DNA of 12,571 nt, taken from contig JACRGO010000038.1 in the NCBI GenBank assembly GCA_016212295.1, positions 1-12,571 of the forward strand. Reading direction: 5' to 3'. Below are positions 1 through 12,275 of the stretch, in pieces (position 1 is the first letter of the stretch; each line of letters opens with the position of its first letter). The translations under genes and the position numbers were made by a program. Under the pieces are notes generated by a model. That model ran no database searches and was not told where the DNA came from. It was given only the letters and a program-made list of their open reading frames with translations. Source of the DNA: Nitrospinota bacterium. Its GTDB lineage: Bacteria; Nitrospinota; Nitrospinia; JACRGO01.

Positions 1-5
1 ATTTT

Positions 6-72
6 AATATTTTTTTCTCCGCGCCTCAGCGTCTCCGCAGTGAAAAAGGTTTAAAATTTCAAATATCTTTGG
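6..72 (+). repeat. 67-bp dispersed repeat, copy 1 (inverted partner at 6432-6498)
   Basis: The reverse complement of 6432-6498 aligns to this stretch without gaps over 67 bases, with three mismatches counted by eye. The core is the GC-rich string CGCCTCAGCGTCTCCGC, flanked by AT-rich arms. The copy may extend beyond the window edge. Together the two copies bracket the third secreted protein gene and the sigma/zinc-finger/cyclase-CHAT genes in inverted orientation. It is non-coding and of unknown function. Confidence 0.85.
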
Positions 73-240
73 CTATGATTTAAAATTTAAATCCCAAATC
101 CGCAATCCTAAATCCGAAATCTCAGAGGCCGGGGGAGGGAGCAAGTGAGGGGAAAGAAACCTGCCCCCAACCCCCGGAGCCTGATTTTTGCCGGTCTCCA
201 GCCGCAGGTGTCCAGCCTGGGGCAACAGGCGGCCGGCAAC
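73..240. other. Gene-free spacer with G/C-rich hairpin potential
   Basis: No reading frame here looks coding on either strand. Bases 129-135 (CCGGGGG) can pair with 171-177 (CCCCCGG), giving a loose hairpin without a T-tract, so I do not call it a terminator. The stretch from about 79 to 122 is AT-rich with repeated AAATCC/AAATCT words, like the array that follows at 245. Nothing else is recognisable. Confidence 0.4.
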
Positions 241-244
241 TTTC

Positions 245-375
245 GATTTGAGATTTGAGATTTCAGATTTAAAATCTCGGATTTAAAATCTCAGTTCCCG
301 GATCATAAATCCCACTTTCGCATTTCAGATTCAAAATTTCAGATTCAAAATCTCAAATCTCAAATCTCAAATTTG
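245..375. repeat. Inverted arrays of heptanucleotide repeats
   Basis: Bases 245-272 read as four 7-base units (GATTTGA, GATTTGA, GATTTCA, GATTTAA). Bases 348-375 read as four units of the opposite sense (AAATCTC three times, then AAATTTG). The two arrays are roughly reverse complements and could form a long AT-rich hairpin in RNA or cruciform DNA. The interior has degenerate copies (CAGATTCAAAAT twice). This lies in the 3' flank of the cyclase-CHAT gene. Confidence 0.75.
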
Positions 376-433: not shown

Positions 434-3205
434 TTAATGTTTTTCCTCCACCCGCATATCCTTCTCCAATCCACCCTCGCTCACTGCCGCCTCGGAATAT
501 TCCGCCTCGGCCTTATCCACGGCTATTTCCCCAACAGGGTCCTTCCGGTAGTCAACGATCTTTCCGTTCACCTCAACCGGCTGGCCGTCCTTATAAACGG
601 TAAACTTCATCCCCGGCGCGACCCCGGCTTTTCCACCGATATTCAGGATGATCCGCCCGCCCTCCACCGAGGATATTTTACCTCTCAGCGGATATTGGGC
701 AAGGAGGGCATCGGAGAGCTTGGACACCGCTTCCTCCGCCATCTTACTCAAGCCGTTGCCGTCAGCGGCCATTGAGGAGGCCGTGGCCACCAAGGAGGTG
801 GTTTCTGTTTCCAGGACCCGGAGGTCGAGCCTGTATTCCCCATTGAAAAACGAAAGGGCGCCCGCGCCGGTAAACCTGGCGCCAAGGATCCGCCCCAATT
901 TCAAGGCCGTGGCTGGGTCCGCCAGGTCGCTTGCGCCCAGGTTCAGTTCCCCGATCAATTTGTCTATAAGAGCCCTTTCCACAACCTTTATTCTCGCGCG
1001 CCGCGCAAAGAGGCCGCCAATATTCAAAGGTGCGTCAGCCAGCCCCTCCTTTCCCGTTACATTCAGCGGGAGAAAGGATATCACAAGCGGCCTGCTGGTC
1101 CACTGGTCCTCTGGAATCAGCGGAGCCTTCTCTTTTTCCTCACGGTATTTTTTCGCGAGGCCAGCGATCATTTCCTTCAATCGCTCGCCTTGAAGCTCCT
1201 CTTCCCGAGGCCTTTCCCGGTCCAACAGCAGTTCGCGGCTTTTTTGAAGGACCTTGGCGGTTTCAGCGGACCGTATGGCGTCCCTTTCCCGGACTTCCTT
1301 GAGGACCCAAAAAGCGGCCAGGCAGGCCAGGGCCAGCATTAAACCGAGGGCCGGCCGGAAACGCCGCGCCGCCGGGCCGTCCACGGTCCTGGAAGCTGCG
1401 TCCTGGGAATAGTCCGGCGAGCGGACCACGCCCGCTGGGACCGCCGCGGGCTCAGGCACGTCCTCCTCCGCCTCTTCTTCCGTTTCATCGGCGAAAGCCA
1501 GATAATTCGTGGTGGGGTCTCCGTAGAGCACGTAACCGGCCCAGACAATGCCGTCCTCTCCGTACACGGATATAAGGTGCTCCCTGGCGCGTTTTACCGC
1601 CTCGCCTATGGAATAACCCGCAAGCAGGTCCTCGTAAAATTTCGAGGCGAACAGGGTACCGGGATCGTCCTGTATCTCCCAAAAGGTCCCTATGTAGTGG
1701 TGGACCCCGGCCAGGAGGAAAGCGTTGGCAAGGCCGAAAATCCTCTTGCCCGCCTTCACGTCCATTTTCCATTCCCCGGTCTGCCCGGAATGGCAGGCAT
1801 TGGAAAAAATAAGGGCTGGAAAGGGGGTTGGACCGGACATCTTGCCGATGTCTTCCGCTGTGAATTTCCCGTCCTTCAGCAGCCATCCGCTGTTGGAGGG
1901 ATTCGCGGCGTCATAATCGCCGTGGCCCGCGAAGTGGACCAGGTCGAACTGGCGGATTTTTTCGCGGACGAACCCGGATGTTACGTCCATCTGTTTTAGA
2001 TGCACGTTGGCCCTCCTGGAGAATTTTTCCAGCTTGTCCCGGATGTTGATCCCTTCATGGTAGGCGCCTTGCAGGTCTCCGCCGGGGTCGGCCATAATCA
2101 ACATGCGGAGGGGAGGATGTATCCTGCGTCCTGGAAAAGGGCTGACGTCCTGCCTGGTGCTGACTATGCGGCCCATGCAAAACCTCTGGCACAGGAAGTT
2201 TTTCCCGTCGTACAGGATCTCCCAGGGGATATGGACCAGGGCGTCGTCGATTTTCAGAAGCAGGTGCTTGGCCTGGGTCTTGGCCAGCCGTTCCTTGACC
2301 GAAGGGGTGAGAATTTCATCCAGCAGATTTTGCCCCAGGGCCTGGAGTTTGTTCAATATCTCCTTGGAGGTCTTTCCACGTTTTATGGAGCGGTTCAGTT
2401 GCTCAACCACTTCCGCGCAATTTTCCTCAATGGACTTTTCCGAGACCCTGGACGTCTCGTAACGCCGGATAGTGGCCTCCTTGCCGCTGCCCTGCTCTGA
2501 GCCGCTTATTTTAATTCCGTCCGTGGTTCTGGACGCCTCCAGTATGAAAATGGAATCATTCTCTTCTCTTGGCGCGCGTCCGGCCTTTGCGGACCTGGTC
2601 CTGGCCGGCGGCTCTGTTTCAGGCCGCCAAACAACCCGGTAACAATCCACCGGGTCCTTCTTGCCTTTCACATTGATTCGTGAATGGAACCGGCAGATGA
2701 TTTCCTCCGATCTCCTCACGCTGTCGTAGACCGGGCCGGATACAAGGATCTCGCCCGCGTCCGCCAGTTTTTCCATCCTGGACGCCAGATTCACGCAGTC
2801 TCCGTAAACATCCTTTTCCTCCCGCAGCGCCTTTCCGTGGTTGATCCCGATCCTTACGCGGACCTTCTTCTCCTCCTCCAGCACGGCGTTATGGGATTCG
2901 AGGGCTTGCTGCATTTCCATGGCGGAAAGGACCGCCTTTTCCGGACTATCGAAGGTGGCCATGATGGCGTCCCCGATGGTCTTGACGATATTTCCGCCAT
3001 GTTTCAGGATGACTGGGAAGAGGGCGTCATTATGCCGCTGCACCATCTTCCGGCCTTCTATGTCGCCGAAATTCTCGAAGAAGGAGCAGGATCCCTTGAT
3101 GTCCGTGAACATCACGCAGATATCCTTCTCGTATTTGCGTTTGAGTTCTGACTCCAGGCGCTCCATGTCCTGAAGTATTTTTTCTATTCCGTTAGGGTTA
3201 GTCAT
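434..3205 (-). CDS. Transmembrane class III adenylate cyclase - CHAT peptidase fusion with periplasmic CsgG/FlgT-like region
   Basis: The protein has 923 residues. Residues 27-190 form a class III cyclase with all expected residues: metal-binding D35 and D79, adenine-selecting K75 and D132, and transition-state N139 and R143. It is therefore predicted to make cAMP as a dimer. Residues about 265-570 form a CHAT (caspase-like) domain with LVHIPWEILYDG at 323-334, H428 in HFAGHG and C471 in SNACHSG as the dyad. One transmembrane helix (617-635) follows an arginine-rich stretch, so the N-terminus is probably cytoplasmic. A charged coiled coil (about 636-695), a CsgG/FlgO-like fold (about 705-835) and a FlgT_C-like tail (841-920) should be periplasmic. 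The ATG is the first possible start, because an in-frame TGA lies two codons upstream, and no Shine-Dalgarno is visible. Domain calls are by eye; the C-terminal ones are less certain. Confidence 0.93.
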   Translation of the reverse strand: MTNPNGIEKILQDMERLESELKRKYEKDICVMFTDIKGSCSFFENFGDIEGRKMVQRHNDALFPVILKHGGNIVKTIGDAIMATFDSPEKAVLSAMEMQQALESHNAVLEEEKKVRVRIGINHGKALREEKDVYGDCVNLASRMEKLADAGEILVSGPVYDSVRRSEEIICRFHSRINVKGKKDPVDCYRVVWRPETEPPARTRSAKAGRAPREENDSIFILEASRTTDGIKISGSEQGSGKEATIRRYETSRVSEKSIEENCAEVVEQLNRSIKRGKTSKEILNKLQALGQNLLDEILTPSVKERLAKTQAKHLLLKIDDALVHIPWEILYDGKNFLCQRFCMGRIVSTRQDVSPFPGRRIHPPLRMLIMADPGGDLQGAYHEGINIRDKLEKFSRRANVHLKQMDVTSGFVREKIRQFDLVHFAGHGDYDAANPSNSGWLLKDGKFTAEDIGKMSGPTPFPALIFSNACHSGQTGEWKMDVKAGKRIFGLANAFLLAGVHHYIGTFWEIQDDPGTLFASKFYEDLLAGYSIGEAVKRAREHLISVYGEDGIVWAGYVLYGDPTTNYLAFADETEEEAEEDVPEPAAVPAGVVRSPDYSQDAASRTVDGPAARRFRPALGLMLALACLAAFWVLKEVRERDAIRSAETAKVLQKSRELLLDRERPREEELQGERLKEMIAGLAKKYREEKEKAPLIPEDQWTSRPLVISFLPLNVTGKEGLADAPLNIGGLFARRARIKVVERALIDKLIGELNLGASDLADPATALKLGRILGARFTGAGALSFFNGEYRLDLRVLETETTSLVATASSMAADGNGLSKMAEEAVSKLSDALLAQYPLRGKISSVEGGRIILNIGGKAGVAPGMKFTVYKDGQPVEVNGKIVDYRKDPVGEIAVDKAEAEYSEAAVSEGGLEKDMRVEEKH

Positions 3206-3267: not shown

Positions 3268-3939
3268 TTAATTGATTAACGAAAGGCAGAAGCTGCCTTC
3301 TTCCCTTCCCTCTTTTTGAATCTCGAAATAGTACACGCCTGGAAAAAGGTCCTCGAACACGACCCTGCCGTGCTCGGAAACATAGGAGGCGGTTTCAAAT
3401 CCGTCCCTGAAGGCCGTGATCCTTACGCCGTTCAATTGTTTTTTACCGGATGGAGAGAGCAGATGGATTTCGAGATCACTCTTCGCTGCCCCTTTTTTTT
3501 CTATATCAAGGCAAAGTCTCATGGCGGCGTGCTCCATGGAAAATGAGAGGAGATTCGACGTCTTTTCACGGTTGACGTCCCTCACCATTACCGGCTCCAG
3601 CCTCGCTGGTCCTTTCATGATAACCCTGCCGGTCGTTTCCACCAACTCCAATCCCTTTTCCAGGAACCGGAGGACCATGCCAAAGGATTTTTTTCCCCGG
3701 ATCGCCTTTTCAATACTCTTGAGGATTTTTGCTGGGGAGGAAGGGGCAAGGGCCTCTGGCCTCTCTTCTCTAAATATTTTGGCTGAGACAAACAGGTCGA
3801 GGCATTCGTGGCAGTTGGCCAGATGCCGGACTATCTTTTCCGATTCTTCTTTGTCCTCCAGGCCGTCAATGAACCTGGCCAGGGAAAGTTCGGACAGGCA
3901 GATTTCTCCCATGTCCAGGCGCATGGCATCGGCTTTCAT
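3268..3939 (-). CDS. Soluble zinc-finger anti-sigma-like protein with C-terminal beta-sandwich
   Basis: The protein has 223 residues from the preferred ATG at 3939, which has AAAGGA eight bases upstream. A longer in-frame ATG at 3981 lacks a ribosome site. Residues 39-46 carry H-x3-C-x2-C (H39, C43, C46), the zf-HC2/ZAS signature of anti-sigma factors, after a helix-rich start that would clamp the sigma factor. No transmembrane segment is seen, so this would be a cytoplasmic anti-sigma. The middle (about 65-130) is helical and unassigned. Residues about 140-223 look like a beta-sandwich of CarboxypepD_reg/SpaA type, with a VVFEDLFPGVYYFEI strand-turn-strand. It follows the sigma gene closely and precedes the cyclase-CHAT gene, so the three are probably one unit. 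Binding to the neighbouring sigma factor is inferred from position and motif. Confidence 0.85.
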   Translation of the reverse strand: MKADAMRLDMGEICLSELSLARFIDGLEDKEESEKIVRHLANCHECLDLFVSAKIFREERPEALAPSSPAKILKSIEKAIRGKKSFGMVLRFLEKGLELVETTGRVIMKGPARLEPVMVRDVNREKTSNLLSFSMEHAAMRLCLDIEKKGAAKSDLEIHLLSPSGKKQLNGVRITAFRDGFETASYVSEHGRVVFEDLFPGVYYFEIQKEGREEGSFCLSLIN

Positions 3940-3993
3940 GGTAAATATCCTTTTTAAAATTTTATCCATCATGTCTATCATTTTTTGCGGTTA

Positions 3994-4599
3994 CTATATA
4001 TAGATAGAGTCCCGAGCATCGTTTTTCTTACAATATTTTTCCAGTTTTTTTATTATTCTGGATTTTCTTACAAAAAAAGAGTTCTCCGATATATCCAGGA
4101 GTCCGGCTGCCTGCCTGGAGGACAGGCTGTATTGGTAGCAGAGCTTGAGAAGGAGGACATCCCTTGGTTTCAGAATATTTTTCATCGCCTCTTCCACCTG
4201 CCGGCGCTTTTGGTGAAACCCGTCGGAATCATCCTCCTCCCGTTCAGAGACGAGGCTGGCGGTGAATTCCGCGTCATTTTCCATGGCCTTTTTCCTGTAT
4301 CTGAAATAACGCCGGGAAGCGCGGATGGAAATCAGCATGAGCCAGGTGGAAAGGGAGCAGTTTTTTTTCCCCTTGAACTGGCGGAGCTTCTGGCAATCCT
4401 TCTCAAGGAGCGAGAGGAAGGTCCTTGACAACAGGTCCTCTCTTTCCTCGTAAGGGACCTGCAAACCCTGTTTTTTGGCCACAATGGAGATGGAGGCCAA
4501 TATGGTATTGGAATATTCGCCGATAAATATTTCCCATGCCCCTGGTTTGTTTTCCAGCAGGTCCTGGATTAATTTCATTTCCGATTCTGGAGTAATCAA
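3994..4599 (-). CDS. ECF-like sigma-70 family RNA polymerase sigma factor
   Basis: The protein is up to 201 residues, the usual size for an ECF sigma factor. Residues about 20-105 match region 2, including AWEIFIGEYS, an EDLLSRTFLSLL stretch and the STWLMLISIRASRRYFRYRKK helix (region 2.3/2.4). Residues about 140-192 match region 4, with a helix-turn-helix in SSRQAAGLLDISENSFFVRKS. A linker of acidic residues joins them. The outer start is a TTG at 4599; an ATG at 4578 (residue 8) is an alternative. Neither has a clear ribosome site, and a TAA three codons before the TTG blocks extension. The next gene is a zinc-finger anti-sigma candidate. The target promoters are unknown; one motif found before two genes (3995-4009 and 12214-12228) is a candidate. 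Confidence 0.9.
   Translation of the reverse strand: MITPESEMKLIQDLLENKPGAWEIFIGEYSNTILASISIVAKKQGLQVPYEEREDLLSRTFLSLLEKDCQKLRQFKGKKNCSLSTWLMLISIRASRRYFRYRKKAMENDAEFTASLVSEREEDDSDGFHQKRRQVEEAMKNILKPRDVLLLKLCYQYSLSSRQAAGLLDISENSFFVRKSRIIKKLEKYCKKNDARDSIYI
3995..4009 (-). promoter_or_regulatory. Candidate promoter motif shared with 12214-12228
   Basis: The sense-strand string CTCTATCTATATATA occurs exactly here and in front of the first secreted-protein gene. Here it overlaps the last codons of the sigma gene and lies about 55 bases before the preferred start of the zinc-finger gene. A transcript starting just after it could express the zinc-finger and cyclase-CHAT genes separately from sigma. 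The AT content makes chance possible. Confidence 0.3.
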
Positions 4600-4622: not shown

Positions 4623-4710
4623 AATAGAACGCGGATGAAACGGATTAGGCTGATTTTCACGGATTTAAAAAATCTTTATCCGCGATAATCCGTATTATCC
4701 GCGTTCTATT
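4623..4710. repeat. 88-bp MITE-like inverted-repeat element
   Basis: The 25-base ends (4623-4647 and 4686-4710) are inverted copies with two mismatches, beginning AATAGAACGCGGAT. Internal words (CGGATTA, CACGGATT, ATCCGCG) repeat the theme. The element fills most of the spacer between the third secreted-protein gene and the sigma gene. Its terminal AATAG supplies the TAG stop of the former. No transposase is nearby, so it would need one in trans or be a relic. On RNA it would fold into a long hairpin with a T-rich flank only on the plus strand. Confidence 0.75.
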
Positions 4711-6403
4711 TTTTCCGCAAAAGAAAATGTTTAAGAGTCACTTTTCCTCCCTCTCCACGCAAGGCGTCTTTTCCCGTGCTATATCCGCTTTTCCTTATCG
4801 TGACAGGATATTTCCCCGCCGGGAGCTCCATGAAATAAGCCCCGATTCCATTGGTCTTCACGGTTTTTATGGGAACCGAAACCTCGGCCAGGGGGAGACT
4901 GAATCCGGTGGCTTGGGAAACCACCATTCCGACAAGTATCCCTGTCCCTGACGCGTTTCTCGTGGCGAAATAACCATTGGAGTTATCAGCGGACTGGAGG
5001 GCGTCGAAGCGCTTCAGGTCAAAGCCGTCTTTCCCATAGACATTGGCGGAGGTGATGTTCAACACGCTTAATCCATTCTTGAGGACCTTGAACTTTAAAT
5101 GAAGGGCCACGGCTTCGGAAATGGCCGCCACGTCCTTGGCGATGAGCGAAATTTTAATGGTCCCCTTGGACCCGTCTATGAAGTGGACCATTTCCACTGT
5201 CTTTTGGGCGGAAGAAGGAATAGAGGCGGCCATCGCCTTTAGAACGCTTTTGTCATATTGGATCCCGATGGTGGCTGATGCATAATTCGCGCTCCCTTTT
5301 ATTTCAACGGGAACATCAATGAGGCCGCCGCTTTTCCCGGAGCCGCTTCCCACGCTTATATTCCACGTGTCCTTGGTTTCCGTTGTGGCCCTTGAAAAAT
5401 CCGGTTGCAAGGAAAGGGCCGCTCCAGATGCTGTGGTGGAGGATATCATGGCGTCAATCAAATAGGCGTCGTTCGCGCCGATTTCTCCATCACCGTCCAG
5501 ATCGCCGGCGTTTTTTTGTTTTTCGTCCGGTTTTATTTGCCCGACCGCCATCTTCAGGACCATGGCGACGTCCTTTTTGGACGCCTCCCCATCCCCATCC
5601 ACATCCCCCCGTTTGTAAGCCGTGGAGGCCGTTACTTCTCCGTTTACGAGAGTCAAGGGAATGGATTTGAAATTCTCGTCCCATGCAAAAGTGAGTTTCA
5701 GGGAAGCATCAGAGGCGTTAAAGGCAAGCCGCGATGTGTCTCCTGCCTTTGCCGATTCGCGGAACCGGAAGCTAAGATAAAAAAAGGTCCCCTCGCCCAC
5801 GAGTTTCTCCCCCTGGCCGGTACTGATGGCGGCAATGAAAACCCCCGGCGTCTTGTTATTTGAAGTGAAACTGTAATTTTTCATCAGGGAAGTCTTCTCA
5901 ACATCCACGCACTCCAGCATCCCGCTGTCGTAAACAATCGTTATATTGGCGTTGGACATTTGAAGCCCGTCAAGGTTTCTTGCGTTGACCGGGACCTTGA
6001 ACACGCCTTCGGAGGGGTCGGCGGAAATTTTGGGGATCCACAGTGACAAGGCCCGGAAGGCACCCTCGCCGGTGGAGGAATACTCAAACTCCGCGCCGGT
6101 GAAGTCCACGGCCCCTACCTGATAGAGGTATTCCTGGTCCGGGACCAGGGACGCGTCCTTGTCCAGGTAAAACGTCTCTTGCACCAGGTCCGCGTTGATT
6201 TTTTTATAATTCTTCAATCCGTCCTGGGTTTTCTCCGCGCGGTAGATATTGAATCCGTAAATCTTGTAGGCGGCGGGAGCGGACCATTTCAGTTCCATGT
6301 CCGCCACGCCCGGCTCGACGGCCAGGCTGAAGGCGAAGGCATGGCTGGAAACAGATAAAAGAGCTATAAGAAAAAGAGTCGTCAACAACTTTTTGGCGGA
6401 CAT
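4706..6403 (-). CDS. Secreted FnIII-cohesin-dockerin-cohesin protein with CarboxypepD_reg-like tail
   Basis: The protein has 565 residues. A signal peptide (1-24, ending SHAFA) is followed by a fibronectin type III-like module (about 25-115), a cohesin-like beta-sandwich (119-260) and a type I dockerin with two calcium loops (265-321: DVDGDGEASKKD and DLDGDGEIGAND). A second cohesin-like module (about 347-470) and a short carboxypeptidase-regulatory-like module (about 487-565) complete it. There is no catalytic domain and no LPXTG or PEP-CTERM anchor. The ATG at 6403 has AGGAG nine bases upstream. The TAG stop lies in the end of a repeat element. Its role is probably structural at the cell surface or outside it. 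It is paralogous to the proteins at 10703-12184 and 7228-10197. The partner of the dockerin cannot be told from sequence. Confidence 0.9.
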   Translation of the reverse strand: MSAKKLLTTLFLIALLSVSSHAFAFSLAVEPGVADMELKWSAPAAYKIYGFNIYRAEKTQDGLKNYKKINADLVQETFYLDKDASLVPDQEYLYQVGAVDFTGAEFEYSSTGEGAFRALSLWIPKISADPSEGVFKVPVNARNLDGLQMSNANITIVYDSGMLECVDVEKTSLMKNYSFTSNNKTPGVFIAAISTGQGEKLVGEGTFFYLSFRFRESAKAGDTSRLAFNASDASLKLTFAWDENFKSIPLTLVNGEVTASTAYKRGDVDGDGEASKKDVAMVLKMAVGQIKPDEKQKNAGDLDGDGEIGANDAYLIDAMISSTTASGAALSLQPDFSRATTETKDTWNISVGSGSGKSGGLIDVPVEIKGSANYASATIGIQYDKSVLKAMAASIPSSAQKTVEMVHFIDGSKGTIKISLIAKDVAAISEAVALHLKFKVLKNGLSVLNITSANVYGKDGFDLKRFDALQSADNSNGYFATRNASGTGILVGMVVSQATGFSLPLAEVSVPIKTVKTNGIGAYFMELPAGKYPVTIRKSGYSTGKDALRGEGGKVTLKHFLLRKK

Positions 6404-6431
6404 TTTTGTTCGCTCCTGCGTTAAAGACTAT

Positions 6432-6498
6432 CCAAAAATATTTGAAATTTTAAACCTTTTTCACCGCGGAGACGCTGAGGCGCAGAGAAAAAAATATT
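6432..6498 (-). repeat. 67-bp dispersed repeat, copy 2
   Basis: This is the reverse complement of 6-72 with three mismatches over 67 bases. It lies in the 5' spacer of the third secreted-protein gene, ending about 30 bases before its start codon, so it is part of the probable leader or promoter region. Confidence 0.85.
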
Positions 6499-6541
6499 TA
6501 AGATTAAAGGGCTTTTGTCTGCGCCAAAGCGTCTCTGCGGT
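6463..6541. repeat. Imperfect long hairpin (24-bp arms)
   Basis: Bases 6463-6486 and 6518-6541 are inverted copies with three mismatches over 24 bases (ACCGCGGAGACGCTGAGGCG and its partner). They share the core of the 67-bp repeat. A 31-base AT-rich loop separates them. The hairpin has no T-tract directly after it on the minus strand, so it is not a convincing terminator for the upstream small gene. Confidence 0.65.
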
Positions 6542-6549
6542 TCATTCGC

Positions 6550-6582
6550 CCCTTCTTTGTGCTCTTTGTGTCTTTGTGGTTA
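6550..6582. repeat. CTTTGTG-type short repeat overlapping a stop codon
   Basis: The word CTTTGTG recurs three times with 8- to 9-base spacing, ending in GTGGTTAA. The TTA at 6580-6582 is the TAA stop of the small membrane protein read on the minus strand, so the repeat supplies the last codon of that gene. Confidence 0.5.
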
Positions 6583-6915
6583 ATTCCTGGCTTTGTTTTT
6601 GGCGCCTTTCGCGGCTAATAAAAAAGCAAGACATAAAATTCCGCTTACCGCAATAGAGGAAAGCAGGGCCCACAGCCAAATCGCCTTCTCTTTTTTTTCG
6701 ACGGCCTGAATAACCGTGTTATGCTCCTCTCTGTATTTGCGCACCAGCTCTGGTTTACCGTCCAAAATGGACCGGGCGGCCTTGTCCAGGATAGCGATGG
6801 CGCCCACTCTCTCCTCCAAATATTTTTGTTTCAGGTGTTTTGCCGCGCTCGTGTAGGACAAACCAGCGGCCAGGGCCAGGACCACGACGGCGATAATTTT
6901 TTTAGTTTTGCTCAT
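6580..6915 (-). CDS. Small protein with two transmembrane helices, function unknown
   Basis: The protein has 111 residues. A lysine-rich start is followed by a hydrophobic segment (7-22) that could be a membrane anchor or signal peptide. A charged amphipathic helix (about 25-75) and a strong transmembrane helix (about 79-101) with a lysine/arginine tail complete it. The layout suggests both ends in the cytoplasm with a periplasmic helix. I recognise no family. AGAGGGA lies seven bases before the ATG. It sits alone between two repeat-filled spacers; the gene above it has its own terminator, so a separate promoter is expected. A role with the secreted proteins on either side is possible but not shown. 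Confidence 0.7.
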   Translation of the reverse strand: MSKTKKIIAVVVLALAAGLSYTSAAKHLKQKYLEERVGAIAILDKAARSILDGKPELVRKYREEHNTVIQAVEKKEKAIWLWALLSSIAVSGILCLAFLLAAKGAKNKARN

Positions 6916-6935
6916 GATATCATCCCTCTGGACAG

Positions 6936-6998
6936 TTATTAACTCCAGCCTTCAGGCTGGGGCCTGCGGACAAACCAAGCAGGGCTTTCAGCCCTGAA
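6936..6998 (-). repeat. Palindromic repeats A (6936-6960) and C (6980-6998)
   Basis: Unit A contains the palindrome CCAGCCTTCAGGCTGG with TTATTAACT beside it. Its reverse complement is found exactly, over 25 bases, at 10587-10611. Unit C (CAGGGCTTTCAGCCCTGAA) matches the palindrome at 10550-10567 with a small gap. They lie in the leader of the small membrane-protein gene and resemble REP elements. Confidence 0.75.
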
Positions 6999-7038
6999 GA
7001 TATATTTGCCTGTCAGCGCGCATCACGCGGGCAGTAAA

Positions 7039-7100
7039 GTCATGGCTAATGCCGGGTAGTTGTTTCCGTTTCTCCGCCATAAATGGCGGAGTTATTAAAA
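7039..7100 (-). repeat. Repeat B, inverted partner of 10323-10390
   Basis: The reverse complement matches 10323-10390 with about five mismatches and one 6-base gap. The shared part goes well beyond the central palindrome (CTCCGCCAT...ATGGCGGAG) into AAACGGAAACAA and AGCCATGAC, so it is one composite element rather than a chance hairpin. With A and C it forms the lower half of a nested inverted set around the VWA gene. Confidence 0.8.
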
Positions 7101-7164
7101 ACCTTATATAACAGATCATTCCTGCCTGTGCGTGTCCCTTATTTTTTTCTTTTCCTTGGCTCTT

Positions 7165-7198
7165 AAAAAAAACCCGGTGCCGGTTTCCCGGCGCCGGG
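7165..7198 (-). terminator. Intrinsic terminator of the VWA-cohesin-dockerin gene
   Basis: On the minus strand an 11-bp stem with one mismatch (CCCGGCGCCGG / CCGGCACCGGG, loop GAAA) is followed directly by eight T residues. It starts 29 bases past the TAA at 7228. This is a textbook rho-independent terminator and marks the end of a separate transcription unit. Confidence 0.92.
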
Positions 7199-7227
7199 CT
7201 ATTATGCTGAACTATTGAATGGAAGCG

Positions 7228-10197
7228 TTATTTTCCACTCTTGTAGTCCTTTATTCCGCTTTTCTGAATAACGGCCTTCAACCTGGAGCGGGTGATGTTC
7301 CGCCCCTTGTCATCGAACAGGTTCGCGTCCGAGACCTGAATACCCTTCAAGGCAGCGGTGCTCTTAAAGGATACAGTGGCGAGAACCACGTCCTTGGCGC
7401 CCAGGCCCTTGTACTTCTTGCTCTTGGTAATGTCTTCCGTCAGGTTGATCACTACCGCGCCCTTCTTCTTTGTGTTGGAGAATCCGGTTGCGGCGCTGTT
7501 CACCTTGACTGACCTTGCCTCGGCGTTTTTACTGAAGGCGAGCTTCAGGGTAGCGGAGACGATCTTGCTGCTTCCCACGCTGCCTTTGTCAAGCACGACC
7601 TCCACGTCGCTTCCCTTCTTCCTCAGGGAAACCTTGACGCTCTGGCCCGCCTCCTGCCGTTCCTTCAGGACATGCTGCCTTTCGAGGACCAGGGATTGGA
7701 GGTTAGTGCTCCCGCCGGCGAGGATATTCGGGAAGGTGCCGTTCACAACGCGGTAGAGTATCATGGCCGCGTCGTTCGCGTAGATGGCCTCATCTCCGTC
7801 TATGTCCCCGGCCCACGTTTGCAAGGGCCAACTTGGTTTTACCAGGTCGGACGCGAATATCATGTCGTAAGTGGCGTCGTCCGCCTTGGTAGTGCAGCTC
7901 CCGTTGGGATCGCCCAGCTTGTAGTTACACTTGACCGTGACGGTCCCGCCCTCGGTGTTCAAAGGCACATCGATTAACTCCAGGGGTTTGCTGCCGGCGC
8001 TCGGCTGGTGCCAGATCTTCGTGGCAGTCTCCTGGTTCGCTGGATCGTCGTTGCTGGTAAAGCTAAAGGAGTCGAAATCACCCTCCTTAGCTGTTTTGCT
8101 CACCTTGAAATTGATATAGAAGAGGGTACCCTCTCCAGCCAAGGTTGTATCGGACTGGCCCGTCGCCAAGGCCACGTTGATCTTGCCTTTTGTCTTGGTG
8201 TTAACGGCCCAGCCCATGCCTGTCACCAAGTCCGTCCTCTCCAGGCCTCCATCCCCAACGCTTGTATCCAAGGTTAGGATTGTGGAGTCATAATTGAGGA
8301 AGACCTGGGCAGCGGCCATGTAGATATTATCGGCGTTCTTGATGCTCACCGGCAGCTTGAACTTGAAATCAGGTTCCTTCTTGTCAGTGCCTGGCGGGAC
8401 CTGCACGTCAGGGACAAAAATAGAAGCAGTGCTCAGAGAGGCGCCGGCTTCATTGGAAGGATCGCTCTTGCCAGCCGCGCCATAATCCGCCTTGGCGATG
8501 TAATAATACCTCGCGGGTATGTATTTCCCGGAACACCCCATGGCGTCGCCGCAAGCGTCAAGCGAATAATCGTCCGCCACGCCGCTGTTGGTGTTAAGGT
8601 ATTTGATAGTGACCTTCTTCTTGAGGTTGGTGTCCATGAAGAGGGTATTCGTGCCAGTATACACGGTTTCAACCGTGGCGCCGGAGCATGTCGTGATGGA
8701 GGTGTCGAAACAGCCGCCGATATCGGAGCGGATGAGTTCGTACTGGACCACGTCAGGGTCGGTCACGGCGTCCCACTTCACCTCTATGTTGTCCACCGAG
8801 GCGTCCGCCCTCAGGTTGAAAGGCGCGGCCAAGCCATCCACTATGAAATCCTTGGAACTTTCGGGCGTCTTGACAGTGACTGTTCCATTCGCGGCAACGG
8901 TAATGGCTGGCGGACCAACGACAACGCTGATCTTTCCAGTGCTGGCCCCTTGTGGGACCTCAGCCTCGATGGTTGTCGTGGATGAGCCCAGGACAGTGGC
9001 GGGAACGCCGTTGAACAGAACGCTGTTGCCGCTGGTGGAGACCACGTTGCTGTCCAGGAAGCCGCTGCCGGTAATGGTAACCTTATCGCCGGTCTTTCCT
9101 GAAGAGGGGGTAAAACCGTCTACCTTAGGACCTTTGGCCGCGCAGGCGGAGTAAGTATAGGAGGCGGTCCCTGTCGGCACATTTCCGCTTATGTGAGCGC
9201 TCGCGCCAGAGGCAAAGGATATGGACATTGTGTGGTCATTGCCGTCCGAGGCATTGGGGCTGTTATACTCCAGCAGATAACTGGTGGAGAGTTCCGTGCT
9301 CATGGCCTGGTAAATCGCGGCCAGTTGGGCGAGATCGTTAGTCGAGTTGTATGTGCCCCCTGTGCTGGTGGCCATGCTTTGCAATACCGTGGAATTGACG
9401 TAGCTCCCGTAACCAACAGTATAAATGGGGATGGGAACCGTCGAGGTGGTTCCTAACGCCTTGGCGATGACCGAGGCAGAGGTGGCGGCGCTGCCGTTGT
9501 CGTCTCCGTCCGTGAATACGAAGACCGCCCTTTTGCCCGTCTCGGTAGACAGATGGTCCAGGGCCGAGTTAACAGCGTCATACAGGGAGGTCCAGCCTGA
9601 CGCATACGAATATTTATCGATTTCCGCGATCAGGGTGGGTTTGTCGTTGGTGAAGCCAATACTAGAATCCACCGTGGAGGAGAAATAAAGAATCTCCGCG
9701 CGGTCATTGGGGTTCATCCGGCTTACGAAATCCCTGGCCGCGTTCTTGAGGTTTTGAAAATCCCAACTCAAGCTCCCGGACCTGTCCAGCACCAAGGCGA
9801 TGGTCAGGGGGTTGTTAGTGGAGTTCTGGATCTTTGACATATAAAAGCTGAGGCCGGCTCCATCCTCCTTGACCGTGAAATCGGCGTCCGTTAGGCTGTC
9901 CTCGGTCTGGTTTTTGTCATTCTTCGGCGTGACATAGGCTTGCACCCTCTGGCAGTCCGACTGCAACTGCACGTTGTCGATGTTCAGGTAGGCCCCTGAC
10001 CCAAAACCGCCGGCGCCGGAAATATTGGTGTACGTTCCGCCGCCCCCGGAGAGATGGGCCTTATGGCGAATGGGGGCCGGACCCGCCTGGCTGCTTCCCA
10101 GGCCAAAAAGGGTGACAACGCCCGCGATTATCAAGCCGAGGCACAGGCTATGAAAAAGGAGCCAGCCCCCTTTTTTGAAAAATGATTTTTTTTTCAT
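7228..10197 (-). CDS. Secreted VWA-IPT/TIG-FnIII-cohesin-dockerin protein
   Basis: The protein has 989 residues. A long signal peptide (1-38, ending SSQA) precedes a glycine-rich stretch and a von Willebrand A domain (about 131-305) with a complete metal-ion site: D138-x-S140-x-S142, T203 and D230. An IPT/TIG module (about 357-445), an FnIII-like module (455-590) and a cohesin-like module (592-756) follow. The dockerin (760-823) has a degenerate first loop (DPNGSCTTKADD, Ser in place of Asp) and a canonical second loop (DIDGDEAIYAND). The C-terminal part (about 852-965) looks like a second, diverged cohesin-type sandwich. It probably acts as a metal-dependent adhesin or scaffold outside the cell. 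AGGAGG lies six bases before the ATG. The gene has its own terminator, and its flanks carry mirrored repeats. No anchor motif is seen. Confidence 0.93.
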   Translation of the reverse strand: MKKKSFFKKGGWLLFHSLCLGLIIAGVVTLFGLGSSQAGPAPIRHKAHLSGGGGTYTNISGAGGFGSGAYLNIDNVQLQSDCQRVQAYVTPKNDKNQTEDSLTDADFTVKEDGAGLSFYMSKIQNSTNNPLTIALVLDRSGSLSWDFQNLKNAARDFVSRMNPNDRAEILYFSSTVDSSIGFTNDKPTLIAEIDKYSYASGWTSLYDAVNSALDHLSTETGKRAVFVFTDGDDNGSAATSASVIAKALGTTSTVPIPIYTVGYGSYVNSTVLQSMATSTGGTYNSTNDLAQLAAIYQAMSTELSTSYLLEYNSPNASDGNDHTMSISFASGASAHISGNVPTGTASYTYSACAAKGPKVDGFTPSSGKTGDKVTITGSGFLDSNVVSTSGNSVLFNGVPATVLGSSTTTIEAEVPQGASTGKISVVVGPPAITVAANGTVTVKTPESSKDFIVDGLAAPFNLRADASVDNIEVKWDAVTDPDVVQYELIRSDIGGCFDTSITTCSGATVETVYTGTNTLFMDTNLKKKVTIKYLNTNSGVADDYSLDACGDAMGCSGKYIPARYYYIAKADYGAAGKSDPSNEAGASLSTASIFVPDVQVPPGTDKKEPDFKFKLPVSIKNADNIYMAAAQVFLNYDSTILTLDTSVGDGGLERTDLVTGMGWAVNTKTKGKINVALATGQSDTTLAGEGTLFYINFKVSKTAKEGDFDSFSFTSNDDPANQETATKIWHQPSAGSKPLELIDVPLNTEGGTVTVKCNYKLGDPNGSCTTKADDATYDMIFASDLVKPSWPLQTWAGDIDGDEAIYANDAAMILYRVVNGTFPNILAGGSTNLQSLVLERQHVLKERQEAGQSVKVSLRKKGSDVEVVLDKGSVGSSKIVSATLKLAFSKNAEARSVKVNSAATGFSNTKKKGAVVINLTEDITKSKKYKGLGAKDVVLATVSFKSTAALKGIQVSDANLFDDKGRNITRSRLKAVIQKSGIKDYKSGK

Positions 10198-10203
10198 CTG
10201 TTT

Positions 10204-10255
10204 CCTCCTAAAAATTTAACGAGAGACAATTGGTTCCAGGGAAATTCCAGGAACC
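10204..10255 (-). promoter_or_regulatory. Ribosome site and leader hairpin of the VWA gene
   Basis: AGGAGG (10204-10209) is a strong Shine-Dalgarno six bases before the ATG at 10197. Just upstream, 10232-10255 forms a near-palindrome (GGTTCC...GGAACC, with pairing GGAA/TTCC inside). It could be a leader hairpin or an operator; no specific regulator is recognised. Confidence 0.5.
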
Positions 10256-10275
10256 GTGCACTGAATATTTGCCTT

Positions 10276-10294
10276 TTAAATCATCACCTCCTTT
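10276..10294 (-). promoter_or_regulatory. Perfect Shine-Dalgarno with a minimal ORF in the leader
   Basis: The sense strand reads AAAGGAGGTGAT, the full complement of a 16S rRNA 3' tail, ending about 86 bases before the real start codon. It runs into GTG-ATG-ATT-TAA, so any initiation would stop within four codons. It could be a ribosome standby site, a tiny leader ORF or the remains of a displaced gene start. The function is unknown. Confidence 0.35.
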
Positions 10295-10322
10295 GTTTTA
10301 ACCGTTCAACCTGCCTATCATA

Positions 10323-10390
10323 TTTTAATAACTCCGCCATTCATGGCGGAGAAGAAGAAACGGAAACAAATACCAGGCTTCAGCCATGAC
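10323..10390 (+). repeat. Repeat B', inverted partner of 7039-7100
   Basis: The central palindrome is 10332-10351 (CTCCGCCAT TC ATGGCGGAG). The element shares about 62 bases with 7039-7100 in the opposite sense, apart from a 6-base AGAAGA insertion. It opens a 290-base field of palindromes upstream of the VWA gene. Confidence 0.8.
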
Positions 10391-10401
10391 CCCTGGCTCT
10401 C

Positions 10402-10510
10402 GTGCCCAGGCTCCTGCCTGGGCACACCGGATCACGAGGCTCCGCCTCGTGTGCCATTATTGGAGGCAGAGCCTCCAGGATCAGCGCTCCCAGGGAGGAC
10501 CCTGGGAGCG
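10402..10510. repeat. Cluster of four distinct palindromes (REP-like)
   Basis: Four perfect or near-perfect hairpins follow each other: 10402-10425 (GTGCCCAGGC, loop TCCT), 10433-10451 (CACGAGGC, loop TCC), 10461-10477 (TGGAGGC, loop AGA) and 10485-10510 (CGCTCCCAGGG, loop AGGA). Arms are 7-11 bases with loops of 3-4. All four sequences differ. None has a T-tract, so they are not terminators. They look like dispersed REP-type elements; no RAYT transposase is in the window. Confidence 0.8.
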
Positions 10511-10549
10511 AGAGGAGGCTGTTTCTGCTTATTTTGAGACCCTTAATAA

Positions 10550-10611
10550 TTCAGGGCTAAAGCCCTATGGAGTTGGTCCATAACCTCCAGCCTGAAGGCT
10601 GGAGTTAATAA
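10550..10611 (+). repeat. Palindromic repeats C' (10550-10567) and A' (10587-10611)
   Basis: C' (GGGCTAAAGCCC core) and A' (CCAGCCTGAAGGCTGG core, then AGTTAATAA) are inverted copies of the units at 6980-6998 and 6936-6960. A' matches exactly over 25 bases. Their order mirrors that on the other side of the VWA gene. Confidence 0.8.
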
Positions 10612-10628
10612 CTCCAAGAAAGCGGGAG

Positions 10629-10697
10629 TCAATAACCACTCACGGTGTATAAACTCACGGTTTTCAACCCAGAACCCAGAACCGTGAACCGTGAACC
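10629..10697. repeat. CACGGT repeats and heptanucleotide array
   Basis: Bases 10668-10695 read as four 7-base units: CCCAGAA twice and CCGTGAA twice. CACGGT at 10641 and 10656 is complementary to the CCGTG units, so a weak 7-bp stem (10656-10662 with 10680-10686) is possible. The block sits just past the stop of the first secreted-protein gene. With no T-tract it is not a clear terminator. Confidence 0.55.
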
Positions 10698-10702
10698 TTA
10701 TT

Positions 10703-12184
10703 TTATTTCGACACTGTCATGGTTTCCGCAAGACCCTCCACCTCTATATTCAAGTCGGAGCGCTCGAAATCACGCGCATAGGCGTCCCCCATCCTGGCAA
10801 GGGAGAAATTAATCCGGCTGGAGCCTGGCTTTTTGGCTAGGGTTTTCAGTTTGCCGAAGGCTTCGAGATTTGAATTAGATGCTGCGCTCCCGTCCTTGGA
10901 TGCTAGTGCGAATTGAAAAACCCCCTTGCTTTGCTTGGACGGGTATTTGACTTCAAAGTTTTTCAGCATGCTCCCGGGCTGAAAGGATTTGATCTCCAGT
11001 ATCTTGGGATCGTAGGTAAGCATGATCTCGCACGAGGCCATTCCTTCCGGATTATTGAGATTCATGGCAAGGAAAAACGCCTTATTCTTTTTATAGCTTC
11101 CTCCTTGCTTGGTAAAGGAAAAGGTGCGTTTTTCCTTTGAGATTCCGGTAAGGGAGTCCAGGTCCGGCCAATCCTGATTCACCACGTAATACAGTATGGC
11201 CGAGGCGTCTAAATTGCCGATGGCCTCGTCTCCGTTGACGTCCCCGGCGGCAAGCTGTTTGGATGAGGGAGAAAGCGACTTGTTCGACGAGAACGTAAGG
11301 GCATAAGATCCGTCATCGGCGCGGACATTTTGATCGCCGGTGATATCTCCCAGTATATAATCCGAGCCGGCGGCGAAGTCGCCGTCATCCAGTTGCAGGT
11401 CAATCACCGCGAAATTTTCGTTCCACATCTTTGTGGCCTTCCCCGTGATGGAGCCGTCAACATCGAACTTTACCCCGGATACCGCGCCTTTTTGTATATC
11501 CTGGTTTACCGTGAAATACAGCTCGACGAAGTTTCCCTCTCCAACTATCACCGGCGGGTTGGAAATGTTTCCCACCATGGCTATGACGACGTAATTGGTT
11601 CCTGTCGTGTTCACGGACCAGCCATATTCGCGGGTCAGAACGGTCCGCTTGACCGCGGCCTTTTTGTCCTCCACCAGGGTAAGGACAGCAGGGTCATATA
11701 CAATGGAGATATTAGCCGAGGTCACTCTCAGATTGTCGGCGTTCTTGACGCTTACCGGGACCATTATGGTGGACCCCGGCTCGCCGTAAACCTGGGGAAT
11801 AAAGAAAAGCCCCTTTCCGAAATAAGCTGAGGCGGTGTTGGAATAATCGCTCTTTATCTTACCGCCGTAATTCACCGCCTTAACCGCGTATTCGTATGTA
11901 TTTCCGGGTACGAGGCTGGAATCATCATCTATATAAAGGGTGTCTTTCACAAGCCCGGCATTTATGGGGGTGGGTGGAAAGGCCGTGTCCCCGACCGCTC
12001 TCCTATGCACATTGTAACCTTCCACATTGCTGTCAGCGGACGGGAGCCATTTCAATTCAGTGGCAAGGGGGCCTGACTGCGCCACCAGCTTTCCAGGGGG
12101 GGGGAGGCTCCCCGCAAAAAGGGCATTCGGCAAAAAAGAGAGCGCAAACAAGGAAACCGCCAAAAAAAGATGTGCTTTTTTCAT
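10703..12184 (-). CDS. Secreted FnIII-cohesin-dockerin-cohesin protein
   Basis: The protein has 493 residues from the preferred ATG at 12184, which begins a clear signal peptide (1-24, ending ALFA) and has GGAGG about 11 bases upstream. An in-frame ATG at 12232 would add 16 residues before the signal and overlap the putative promoter. Modules are FnIII-like (27-122), cohesin-like (127-272), dockerin with two calcium loops (278-337: DITGDQNVRADD and DVNGDEAIGNLD) and a second cohesin-like sandwich (about 353-470). No enzyme domain or wall anchor is present. It shares the module order of the 565-residue protein, so the two are paralogues. A structural role outside the cell is inferred; whether cohesin and dockerin bind each other in cis or trans is open. 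Confidence 0.9.
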   Translation of the reverse strand: MKKAHLFLAVSLFALSFLPNALFAGSLPPPGKLVAQSGPLATELKWLPSADSNVEGYNVHRRAVGDTAFPPTPINAGLVKDTLYIDDDSSLVPGNTYEYAVKAVNYGGKIKSDYSNTASAYFGKGLFFIPQVYGEPGSTIMVPVSVKNADNLRVTSANISIVYDPAVLTLVEDKKAAVKRTVLTREYGWSVNTTGTNYVVIAMVGNISNPPVIVGEGNFVELYFTVNQDIQKGAVSGVKFDVDGSITGKATKMWNENFAVIDLQLDDGDFAAGSDYILGDITGDQNVRADDGSYALTFSSNKSLSPSSKQLAAGDVNGDEAIGNLDASAILYYVVNQDWPDLDSLTGISKEKRTFSFTKQGGSYKKNKAFFLAMNLNNPEGMASCEIMLTYDPKILEIKSFQPGSMLKNFEVKYPSKQSKGVFQFALASKDGSAASNSNLEAFGKLKTLAKKPGSSRINFSLARMGDAYARDFERSDLNIEVEGLAETMTVSK

Positions 12185-12213
12185 TTTAATCATCCCCTCC
12201 CAAATAGATGTTT

Positions 12214-12228
12214 TATATATAGATAGAG
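12214..12228 (-). promoter_or_regulatory. Candidate promoter of the first secreted-protein gene
   Basis: The sense strand has CTCTATCTATATATA, identical over 15 bases to the site at 3995-4009. It lies 30 bases before the preferred start, a fitting place for a -10 region and short leader. A matching -35 box is not obvious. Control by the ECF-like sigma factor of this window is a testable guess. Confidence 0.35.
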
Positions 12229-12275
12229 ACATGAGAATTAAATTTCTTACATATTTTTTTAAAAAAATTTATGAA

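Follow-up and report, generated by a model that had tools for sequence, protein, structure and literature searches.

Analysis of a 12,571-nucleotide (nt) contig of a Nitrospinota bacterium (JACRGO010000038.1 in assembly GCA_016212295.1; the whole contig is referred to here as the window) revealed that a gene encoding a transmembrane protein with both an adenylate cyclase and a CHAT peptidase domain is the third gene of a sigma/anti-sigma/CHAT operon, all on one strand. The initial annotation of the window, which described the two-domain protein, made no mention of the adjoining upstream genes for an extracytoplasmic function (ECF) sigma factor and a zinc-binding anti-sigma (ZAS) factor. We propose, with a probability of roughly 0.65, that the third product is a membrane CHAT protease which is activated by an envelope signal, cuts the anti-sigma factor and thereby frees the sigma factor, while the cyclase constitutes a secondary branch. 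Bacteria commonly encode CHAT peptidases, but a substrate is known for few of them; the operon supplies a candidate substrate and, within it, a candidate residue. The three genes are located as follows.

3994..4599, minus strand: ECF sigma factor, 201 amino acids (TIGR02937; PDB matches of the family profile)
3268..3981, minus strand: soluble ZAS anti-sigma factor, 237 amino acids (zf-HC2, H53/C57/C60, PDB matches, model)
434..3205, minus strand: transmembrane cyclase-CHAT protein, 923 amino acids (open reading frame, Pfam, AlphaFold model, fold search)

The open reading frame of the sigma gene begins with TTG as listed (an internal ATG is possible). Its product matched TIGR02937 at 56.2 bits (cut-off of 42.9), and the profile of its family matched SigH, SigE and SigW in the PDB. 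The second product matched zf-HC2 at 19.7 bits, which is under the Pfam cut-off of 22.2; the same domain was detected at an E value of ≤0.01 in 36 of 45 relatives. Its HxxxCxxC zinc motif is formed by H53, C57 and C60, each of them present in 42 of 45 homologues, and its PDB matches were RsiW and ChrR. In the predicted structure, zinc-finger helices (residues 31 to 73) precede a disordered stretch (residues 123 to 138, predicted local distance difference test [pLDDT] of <50) and a beta-sandwich (residues 144 to 236), for which a fold search returned only common Ig/macroglobulin-like folds (best Z score of 8.8) and no informative relative. A membrane helix is absent from 54 of 56 anti-sigma factors of this type, including that of the window. 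To judge from the gene order, the anti-sigma factor would act as an inhibitor that binds the sigma factor encoded next to it.

The gene for the cyclase-CHAT protein is intact and has an ATG start. Behind its cyclase domain, the protein is organized as follows.

1487..2557, minus strand: CHAT protease region, residues 217 to 573 (PF12770 match, dyad, fold search)
1922..1924 and 1793..1795, minus strand: codons of the CHAT residues His428 and Cys471, respectively
1286..1354, minus strand: transmembrane helix, at about residues 618 to 640 (hydropathy; position common to homologues)
443..1108, minus strand: C-terminal CsgG/FlgO/FlgT_C-like domain (weak Pfam matches here; clear CsgG in relatives)

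The CHAT domain (PF12770) was matched at residues 288 to 563 with 123.5 bits against a cut-off of 24, and the catalytic dyad H428/C471 is present as initially annotated; in the alignment of CHAT loci, the His is kept in 81 of 81 homologues and the Cys in 80 of 81. An AlphaFold2 model of the 923-residue protein, built with 26 relatives (mean pLDDT of 78), gave a cyclase fold and a CHAT fold around H428/C471, with disordered stretches at residues 197 to 215 and 573 to 617 (pLDDT of <50). Residues 216 to 573 of the model aligned with separase (5fc2, Z score of 25.6) and with Csx29 (8eey, Z score of 24.9) over approximately 306 residues in both cases; as modelled, the CHAT half is of the separase/Csx29 fold type, nearest to separase and to Csx29 of Craspase. 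To judge from its sequence and model, the domain would be an active protease. The membrane helix that had been placed behind CHAT was recovered as a single hydrophobic helix at about residues 620 to 638, as in 73 of the 76 homologues with a long enough tail. The CsgG/FlgO-FlgT_C-like end fell under the Pfam cut-offs in the window protein (FlgT_C, E value of 3e-4; CsgG, E value of 0.08), but CsgG was matched by 19 of 26 aligned relatives (best E value of 1.2e-10), in keeping with the initial assignment. This domain is probably a periplasmic sensor. Among homologues, the part behind the membrane helix differs and may be CsgG-like, TPR plus CsgG-like, DUF4384, trypsin or F5/F8 type C.

We then asked how widely the gene order is kept. 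A scan of genome contigs with the window protein alone found no relative; a scan with an alignment of six relatives yielded 80 loci, and CHAT loci were found in Nitrospinota, Nitrospirota, Desulfobacterota, Myxococcota, Omnitrophota and others. The same order was visible in the first relatives examined. For the count, the upstream pair was called by hidden Markov models built from five seed sigma and anti-sigma factors, and only loci with 1.6 kb or more of sequence upstream were counted. The order sigma, anti-sigma, CHAT on the same strand was present in 49 of these 67 loci and in 42 of 49 close homologues (CHAT score of ≥400), 40 of them nearly contiguous, and the median gap between the anti-sigma and CHAT genes was −1 nt. 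In a reverse search that started from the anti-sigma factor alone, all full-length homologues retrieved lay near a CHAT gene wherever enough flanking sequence was available; CHAT was occasionally upstream or on the other strand. Two matches without CHAT (loci L209 and L211) had only the zinc-finger part in common. The constant CHAT dyad and the upstream sigma/anti-sigma pair together point to anti-sigma cleavage as the main output.

The three genes are often followed by genes for further envelope proteins. Near the 49 cassettes, a TPR-Ig-CsgG lipoprotein was encoded in 25 and a FadL/OMPP1-type barrel in 24. In the genome of the window, a CsgG lipoprotein and a FadL-like barrel are encoded together on another contig, C191, whose final 21 bases coincide with the initial 21 of the window, both read in the same direction.

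1..21, no strand assigned: identical 21-base overlap with the end of contig C191 (21-mer unique to these contig ends)

No other copy of this 21-mer exists in the genome. The joined order would be sigma, anti-sigma, CHAT, lipoprotein and barrel, as in loci L070, L076, L078 and L080. The contig break itself coincides with an inverted-repeat hairpin formed by GCGGAGACGCTGAGGCGCGGAG and its complement, which is followed by a low-complexity AAATTTGAGATTT-like stretch (window positions 1 to 370 and the end of C191).

A candidate cleavage site was found in the disordered linker of the anti-sigma factor.

3580..3582, minus strand: candidate site of CHAT cleavage in the anti-sigma factor, Arg134 (EPVMVR/D; conservation, disorder, P1')

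Arg134 was invariant in an alignment of 45 anti-sigma sequences, and after more sequences had been added, Arg occupied this position in 75 of 76. The conserved Arg has variable flanks and lies inside the disordered stretch of residues 123 to 138; it is usually preceded by Val, Leu, Ala or Ile, and Gly or Ser follows at P1' in 53 of 68 distinct sequences. One of the 75 Arg residues, that of L209, was probably aligned by chance, and we rejected it as a homologous site, since the resemblance of that protein is limited to the ZAS part and it has a DUF4384 domain. Separase is known to cleave after Arg within unstructured stretches (PMC10317155), and the sequence pattern makes Arg134 a likely CHAT cleavage site of the anti-sigma factor.

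The conservation of this residue bears on two other explanations. According to the first, the role of the sigma and anti-sigma factors is confined to regulating expression of the operon, and CHAT, once induced, is the output and cleaves proteins other than the anti-sigma factor, as might happen during suicide or an envelope response. Autoregulation of the operon is common among ECF sigma factors, and CHAT and caspase-like peptidases are effectors in conflict systems (PMC7159879); nevertheless, we regard this explanation as unlikely in view of the almost invariant Arg in the anti-sigma linker, the restriction of full-length ZAS-type anti-sigma factors found here to the vicinity of CHAT, the sensor-like domains on CHAT itself and an anti-sigma factor that has no membrane sensor of its own. 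According to the second, CHAT acts without proteolysis by binding the anti-sigma factor via its Arg linker and pulling it off sigma. Such partner switching would agree with a 2022 review of noncanonical ECF factors, in which three mechanisms for soluble anti-sigma factors are given (conformational change, partner switch or a mechanosensing complex), none of them CHAT cleavage (PMC8999054). Yet all but 1 of 81 proteins retain the His/Cys dyad, and both the disorder of the linker around the Arg and the preferred P1' residues resemble those of a cleavage site, which renders nonproteolytic action highly improbable.

The proteolytic mechanism that we favor would proceed as follows. At rest, the soluble ZAS anti-sigma factor (3268 to 3981) would hold the ECF sigma factor (3994 to 4599) in the cytoplasm. 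The C-terminal CsgG/FlgT-like domain of the CHAT protein would sense an envelope signal, probably together with the CsgG lipoprotein and the FadL-type outer membrane barrel, and this would activate the cytoplasmic CHAT protease. CHAT would then cut the anti-sigma factor after Arg134 in the disordered linker, parting the sigma-binding zinc-finger portion from the beta-sandwich and leading to release of sigma, perhaps only after further degradation of the sigma-bound anti-sigma fragment. In addition, CHAT would probably cut its own linkers at similar Arg motifs, by which CHAT and the cyclase might be detached from the membrane or separated from one another. The cyclase would be a secondary, replaceable module, its cyclic nucleotide serving as a second input or output.

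Several observations weigh against this mechanism. No sigma/anti-sigma genes were called upstream of 18 of the 67 CHAT loci, mostly remote ones, and no promoter motif shared upstream of the sigma genes rose above shuffled sequences. The conserved Arg could instead serve sigma binding, folding or CHAT contact. In Craspase, no single residue of the sigma inhibitor Csx30 is essential for cleavage (PMC10028731), so CHAT proteases do not generally require an invariant P1 residue. The window CHAT has an S1-type Asp (D513), which we dropped as proof of Arg specificity, since other CHAT proteins have it as well. Finally, the join between C191 and the window, which would bring the lipoprotein and barrel into the cassette, is supported by an overlap of 21 bases.

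The closest parallel among known systems is a CRISPR-linked one. In Craspase (type III-E; Cas7-11, the TPR-CHAT protein Csx29, Csx30 and CASP-sigma), a CHAT protease, a soluble sigma inhibitor and an ECF sigma factor are likewise encoded together, and Csx29 cleaves the inhibitor Csx30 (PMC10028731); the CHAT domain of Csx29 is the one that aligned with the window CHAT at a Z score of 24.9. Inhibition in Craspase is relieved by a cut in a flexible loop; for the window operon, the corresponding step is predicted from the three neighboring genes and the candidate Arg. Sigma binding requires no more than the N-terminal part of Csx30 (PMC10028731), and a cut behind the sigma-binding domain may therefore need a second degradation step. 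In contrast to Craspase, no CRISPR gene and no Cas domain was found among the genes of the window and the overlapping contig C191; the window CHAT is membrane anchored and carries envelope domains, the inhibitor is a ZAS protein with a linker Arg in 75 of 76, and an optional cyclase stands in place of the RNA sensor. CalpL/CalpT/CalpS of type III CRISPR systems (PMC11417357) also form a triad of protease, anti-sigma factor and ECF sigma factor, and cleavage of CalpT leaves a sigma-bound fragment that is thought to undergo a second degradation step; however, CalpL is a Lon-SAVED protease that is activated by cyclic tetraadenylate (cA4) and is not membrane bound. Separase (Peptidase C50), the nearest fold to the window CHAT half, shares with our proposal the cut after Arg in unstructured stretches but is a eukaryotic cohesin protease with no membrane or sigma link.

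Other parallels concern envelope signaling. In regulated intramembrane proteolysis (RseA/DegS/RseP and RsiW), an envelope signal likewise frees an ECF sigma factor by cutting of a ZAS anti-sigma factor, but there the anti-sigma factor spans the membrane and the first cut occurs outside, whereas in the window the anti-sigma factor is soluble and the putative protease spans the membrane. Fec-type systems (FecA/FecR/FecI) resemble the cassette in the clustering of an outer membrane barrel, an inner membrane protein and an ECF sigma factor; here, a FadL-type barrel and a CsgG lipoprotein replace the TonB receptor, while CHAT and a soluble ZAS protein replace FecR. ECF54 genes occur near CHAT, subtilase and carboxypeptidase genes, and proteolytic control was proposed for them, but they are described as lacking an anti-sigma factor (PMC8999054); the same review places CHAT genes only near ECF54. 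In the open PubMed Central literature, subscription papers and with them the main ECF classification lying outside this scope, we found no CRISPR-independent sigma/anti-sigma/CHAT operon described. The cassette might tentatively be seen as a separate class of ECF signaling, in which a FadL/CsgG-linked transmembrane caspase-type receptor cuts a soluble ZAS anti-sigma factor at one Arg and itself at similar Arg motifs, a single envelope signal yielding both free sigma and a released or switched cyclase, but a class so defined is doubtful. If the favored mechanism is true, the Craspase logic, in which CHAT cuts a sigma inhibitor, would also exist as a CRISPR-independent signaling module in several phyla, and a transmembrane protease could carry an envelope signal to a soluble anti-sigma factor.

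The cyclase domain proved to be intact in the window and optional in relatives.

2621..3133, minus strand: class III nucleotide cyclase domain, residues 25 to 195 (PF00211, residues, Ma1120 fold match)

Guanylate_cyc (PF00211) was matched at residues 25 to 189 with 88.4 bits (cut-off of 21.9), and all six residues initially named are present, namely the metal-binding D35 and D79, the transition-state residues N139 and R143 and the adenine-specifying K75 and D132. Residues 25 to 194 of the model matched the adenylyl cyclase Ma1120 (Z score of 26.2, root mean square deviation of 1.4 over 161 residues). The fusion is not a one-off arrangement: an N-terminal cyclase was present in 31 of 81 CHAT loci, while the remaining 50 keep CHAT without it. 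Among 32 aligned cyclases, one of them from a truncated locus, all six residues are intact in 22, 6 deviate at the purine-specifying Lys/Asp only, and 4, including both same-genus copies, have lost a catalytic residue. On the CHAT tree, the presence of the cyclase requires approximately 10 changes, at least 3 of which are forced by well-supported branches, and the cyclase therefore behaves as a mobile module.

These data bear on the initial view of the protein as a receptor that mainly couples an outside signal to cyclic AMP (cAMP) and proteolysis and that cuts itself to release a soluble cyclase. Two catalytic domains do reside on one transmembrane protein, the 22 complete cyclases and the Arg motifs in both linkers described below fit such coupling, and so do the 22 domains binding cyclic nucleoside monophosphates (cNMP) in the genome of the window and the cNMP-binding neighbors found in four other loci. 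Coupling is not the most conserved function, however, as the cyclase is missing from the 50 loci that keep CHAT and its catalytic residues are lost in 4 of 32, and as a sole function it would leave the conserved sigma and anti-sigma genes unexplained. We consider it quite improbable as the main role; such coupling may nevertheless exist as a side branch. The four cNMP-binding proteins adjoin cyclase-bearing cassettes (L046:8745-10526, L047:4514-6159, L062:6641-7024 and L077:2175-3266). Two of them are PilZ-cNMP-kinase fusions, and all four are possible readers of the cyclase product.

Self-cleavage, also raised in the initial annotation, was assessed through Arg motifs in the two disordered linkers of the cyclase-CHAT protein.

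1421..1423, minus strand: Arg595 (AGVVRSP), candidate self-cleavage site before the membrane helix (motif enrichment; pLDDT of <50 at residues 573 to 617)
2594..2596, minus strand: Arg204 (ARTRSAK), candidate self-cleavage site in the cyclase-CHAT linker (T-R-small motif of relatives; pLDDT of <50)

The motif [VLIM]R[GS] was present in 32% of 71 linkers between CHAT and the helix, compared with a mean of 8.6% and a maximum of 19.7% in 1,000 shuffles. Because hydrophobic-Arg-Gly/Ser motifs are thus more frequent than in shuffled linkers, self-cleavage is plausible before the helix. Between cyclase and CHAT, where relatives have Thr-Arg-Ser/Gly/Ala motifs, the strict motif was not enriched over shuffles; a looser hydrophobic/Thr-Arg-small motif was found in 74% of linkers versus 46% of shuffled ones (maximum of 68% in 500). 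The motif counts lend some support to self-cleavage of the CHAT protein at its linker Arg motifs.

A comparison of loci pointed to an exchange of sensors. In L209 (2902-3810, genome G154), an ECF sigma factor is encoded beside a transmembrane ZAS anti-sigma factor with a C-terminal DUF4384 domain; no CHAT was seen in the stretch read there, and the same genome additionally has CHAT cassettes. In L063, L065 and L102, DUF4384 is instead carried by the transmembrane CHAT protein next to a soluble anti-sigma factor. The same sensor type therefore appears to be wired either directly to the anti-sigma factor or to CHAT, in agreement with the favored mechanism.

Additional CHAT proteins and cassettes were observed. 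Desulfonema magnum (genome G172, locus L099) has four separate sigma/anti-sigma/CHAT cassettes in one genome. In four loci, a second, distant CHAT protein on a separate branch of the tree is encoded directly after the cassette CHAT (L063:11043-16589, L065:12947-16192, L067:7909-11328 and L069:11120-15880). The genome of the window encodes a second CHAT protein of 1,109 amino acids (L002, G000:C21:2093-5422; 57 bits), beside which no sigma/anti-sigma genes were seen. The N terminus of a solved 991-residue CHAT protein (PDB 8rot, chain B) matched the ZAS profile weakly (E value of 0.034), and this chain perhaps represents an anti-sigma factor and CHAT fused in a single polypeptide; no literature on 8rot was found among open PubMed Central papers.

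We also considered anti-phage defense and rejected it: the only PADLOC hits, PycC and BovA, arose from the cyclase and CHAT domains in common, and Pfam and PADLOC revealed no further defense gene in the window. Upstream of the operon, the window encodes three large secreted cohesin proteins (4706 to 12232), all assigned with Pfam; dockerin-like domains are present in two of them and VWA and TIG domains in one.

4706..6403, minus strand: secreted cohesin-dockerin protein
7228..10197, minus strand: secreted VWA-TIG-cohesin protein
10703..12232, minus strand: secreted fn3-cohesin protein

Further secreted Ig, LCCL and cohesin proteins are encoded on contig C191. From their position on both sides of the operon, these secreted cohesin, dockerin, VWA, Ig and LCCL proteins are plausible members of the regulon of the sigma factor.

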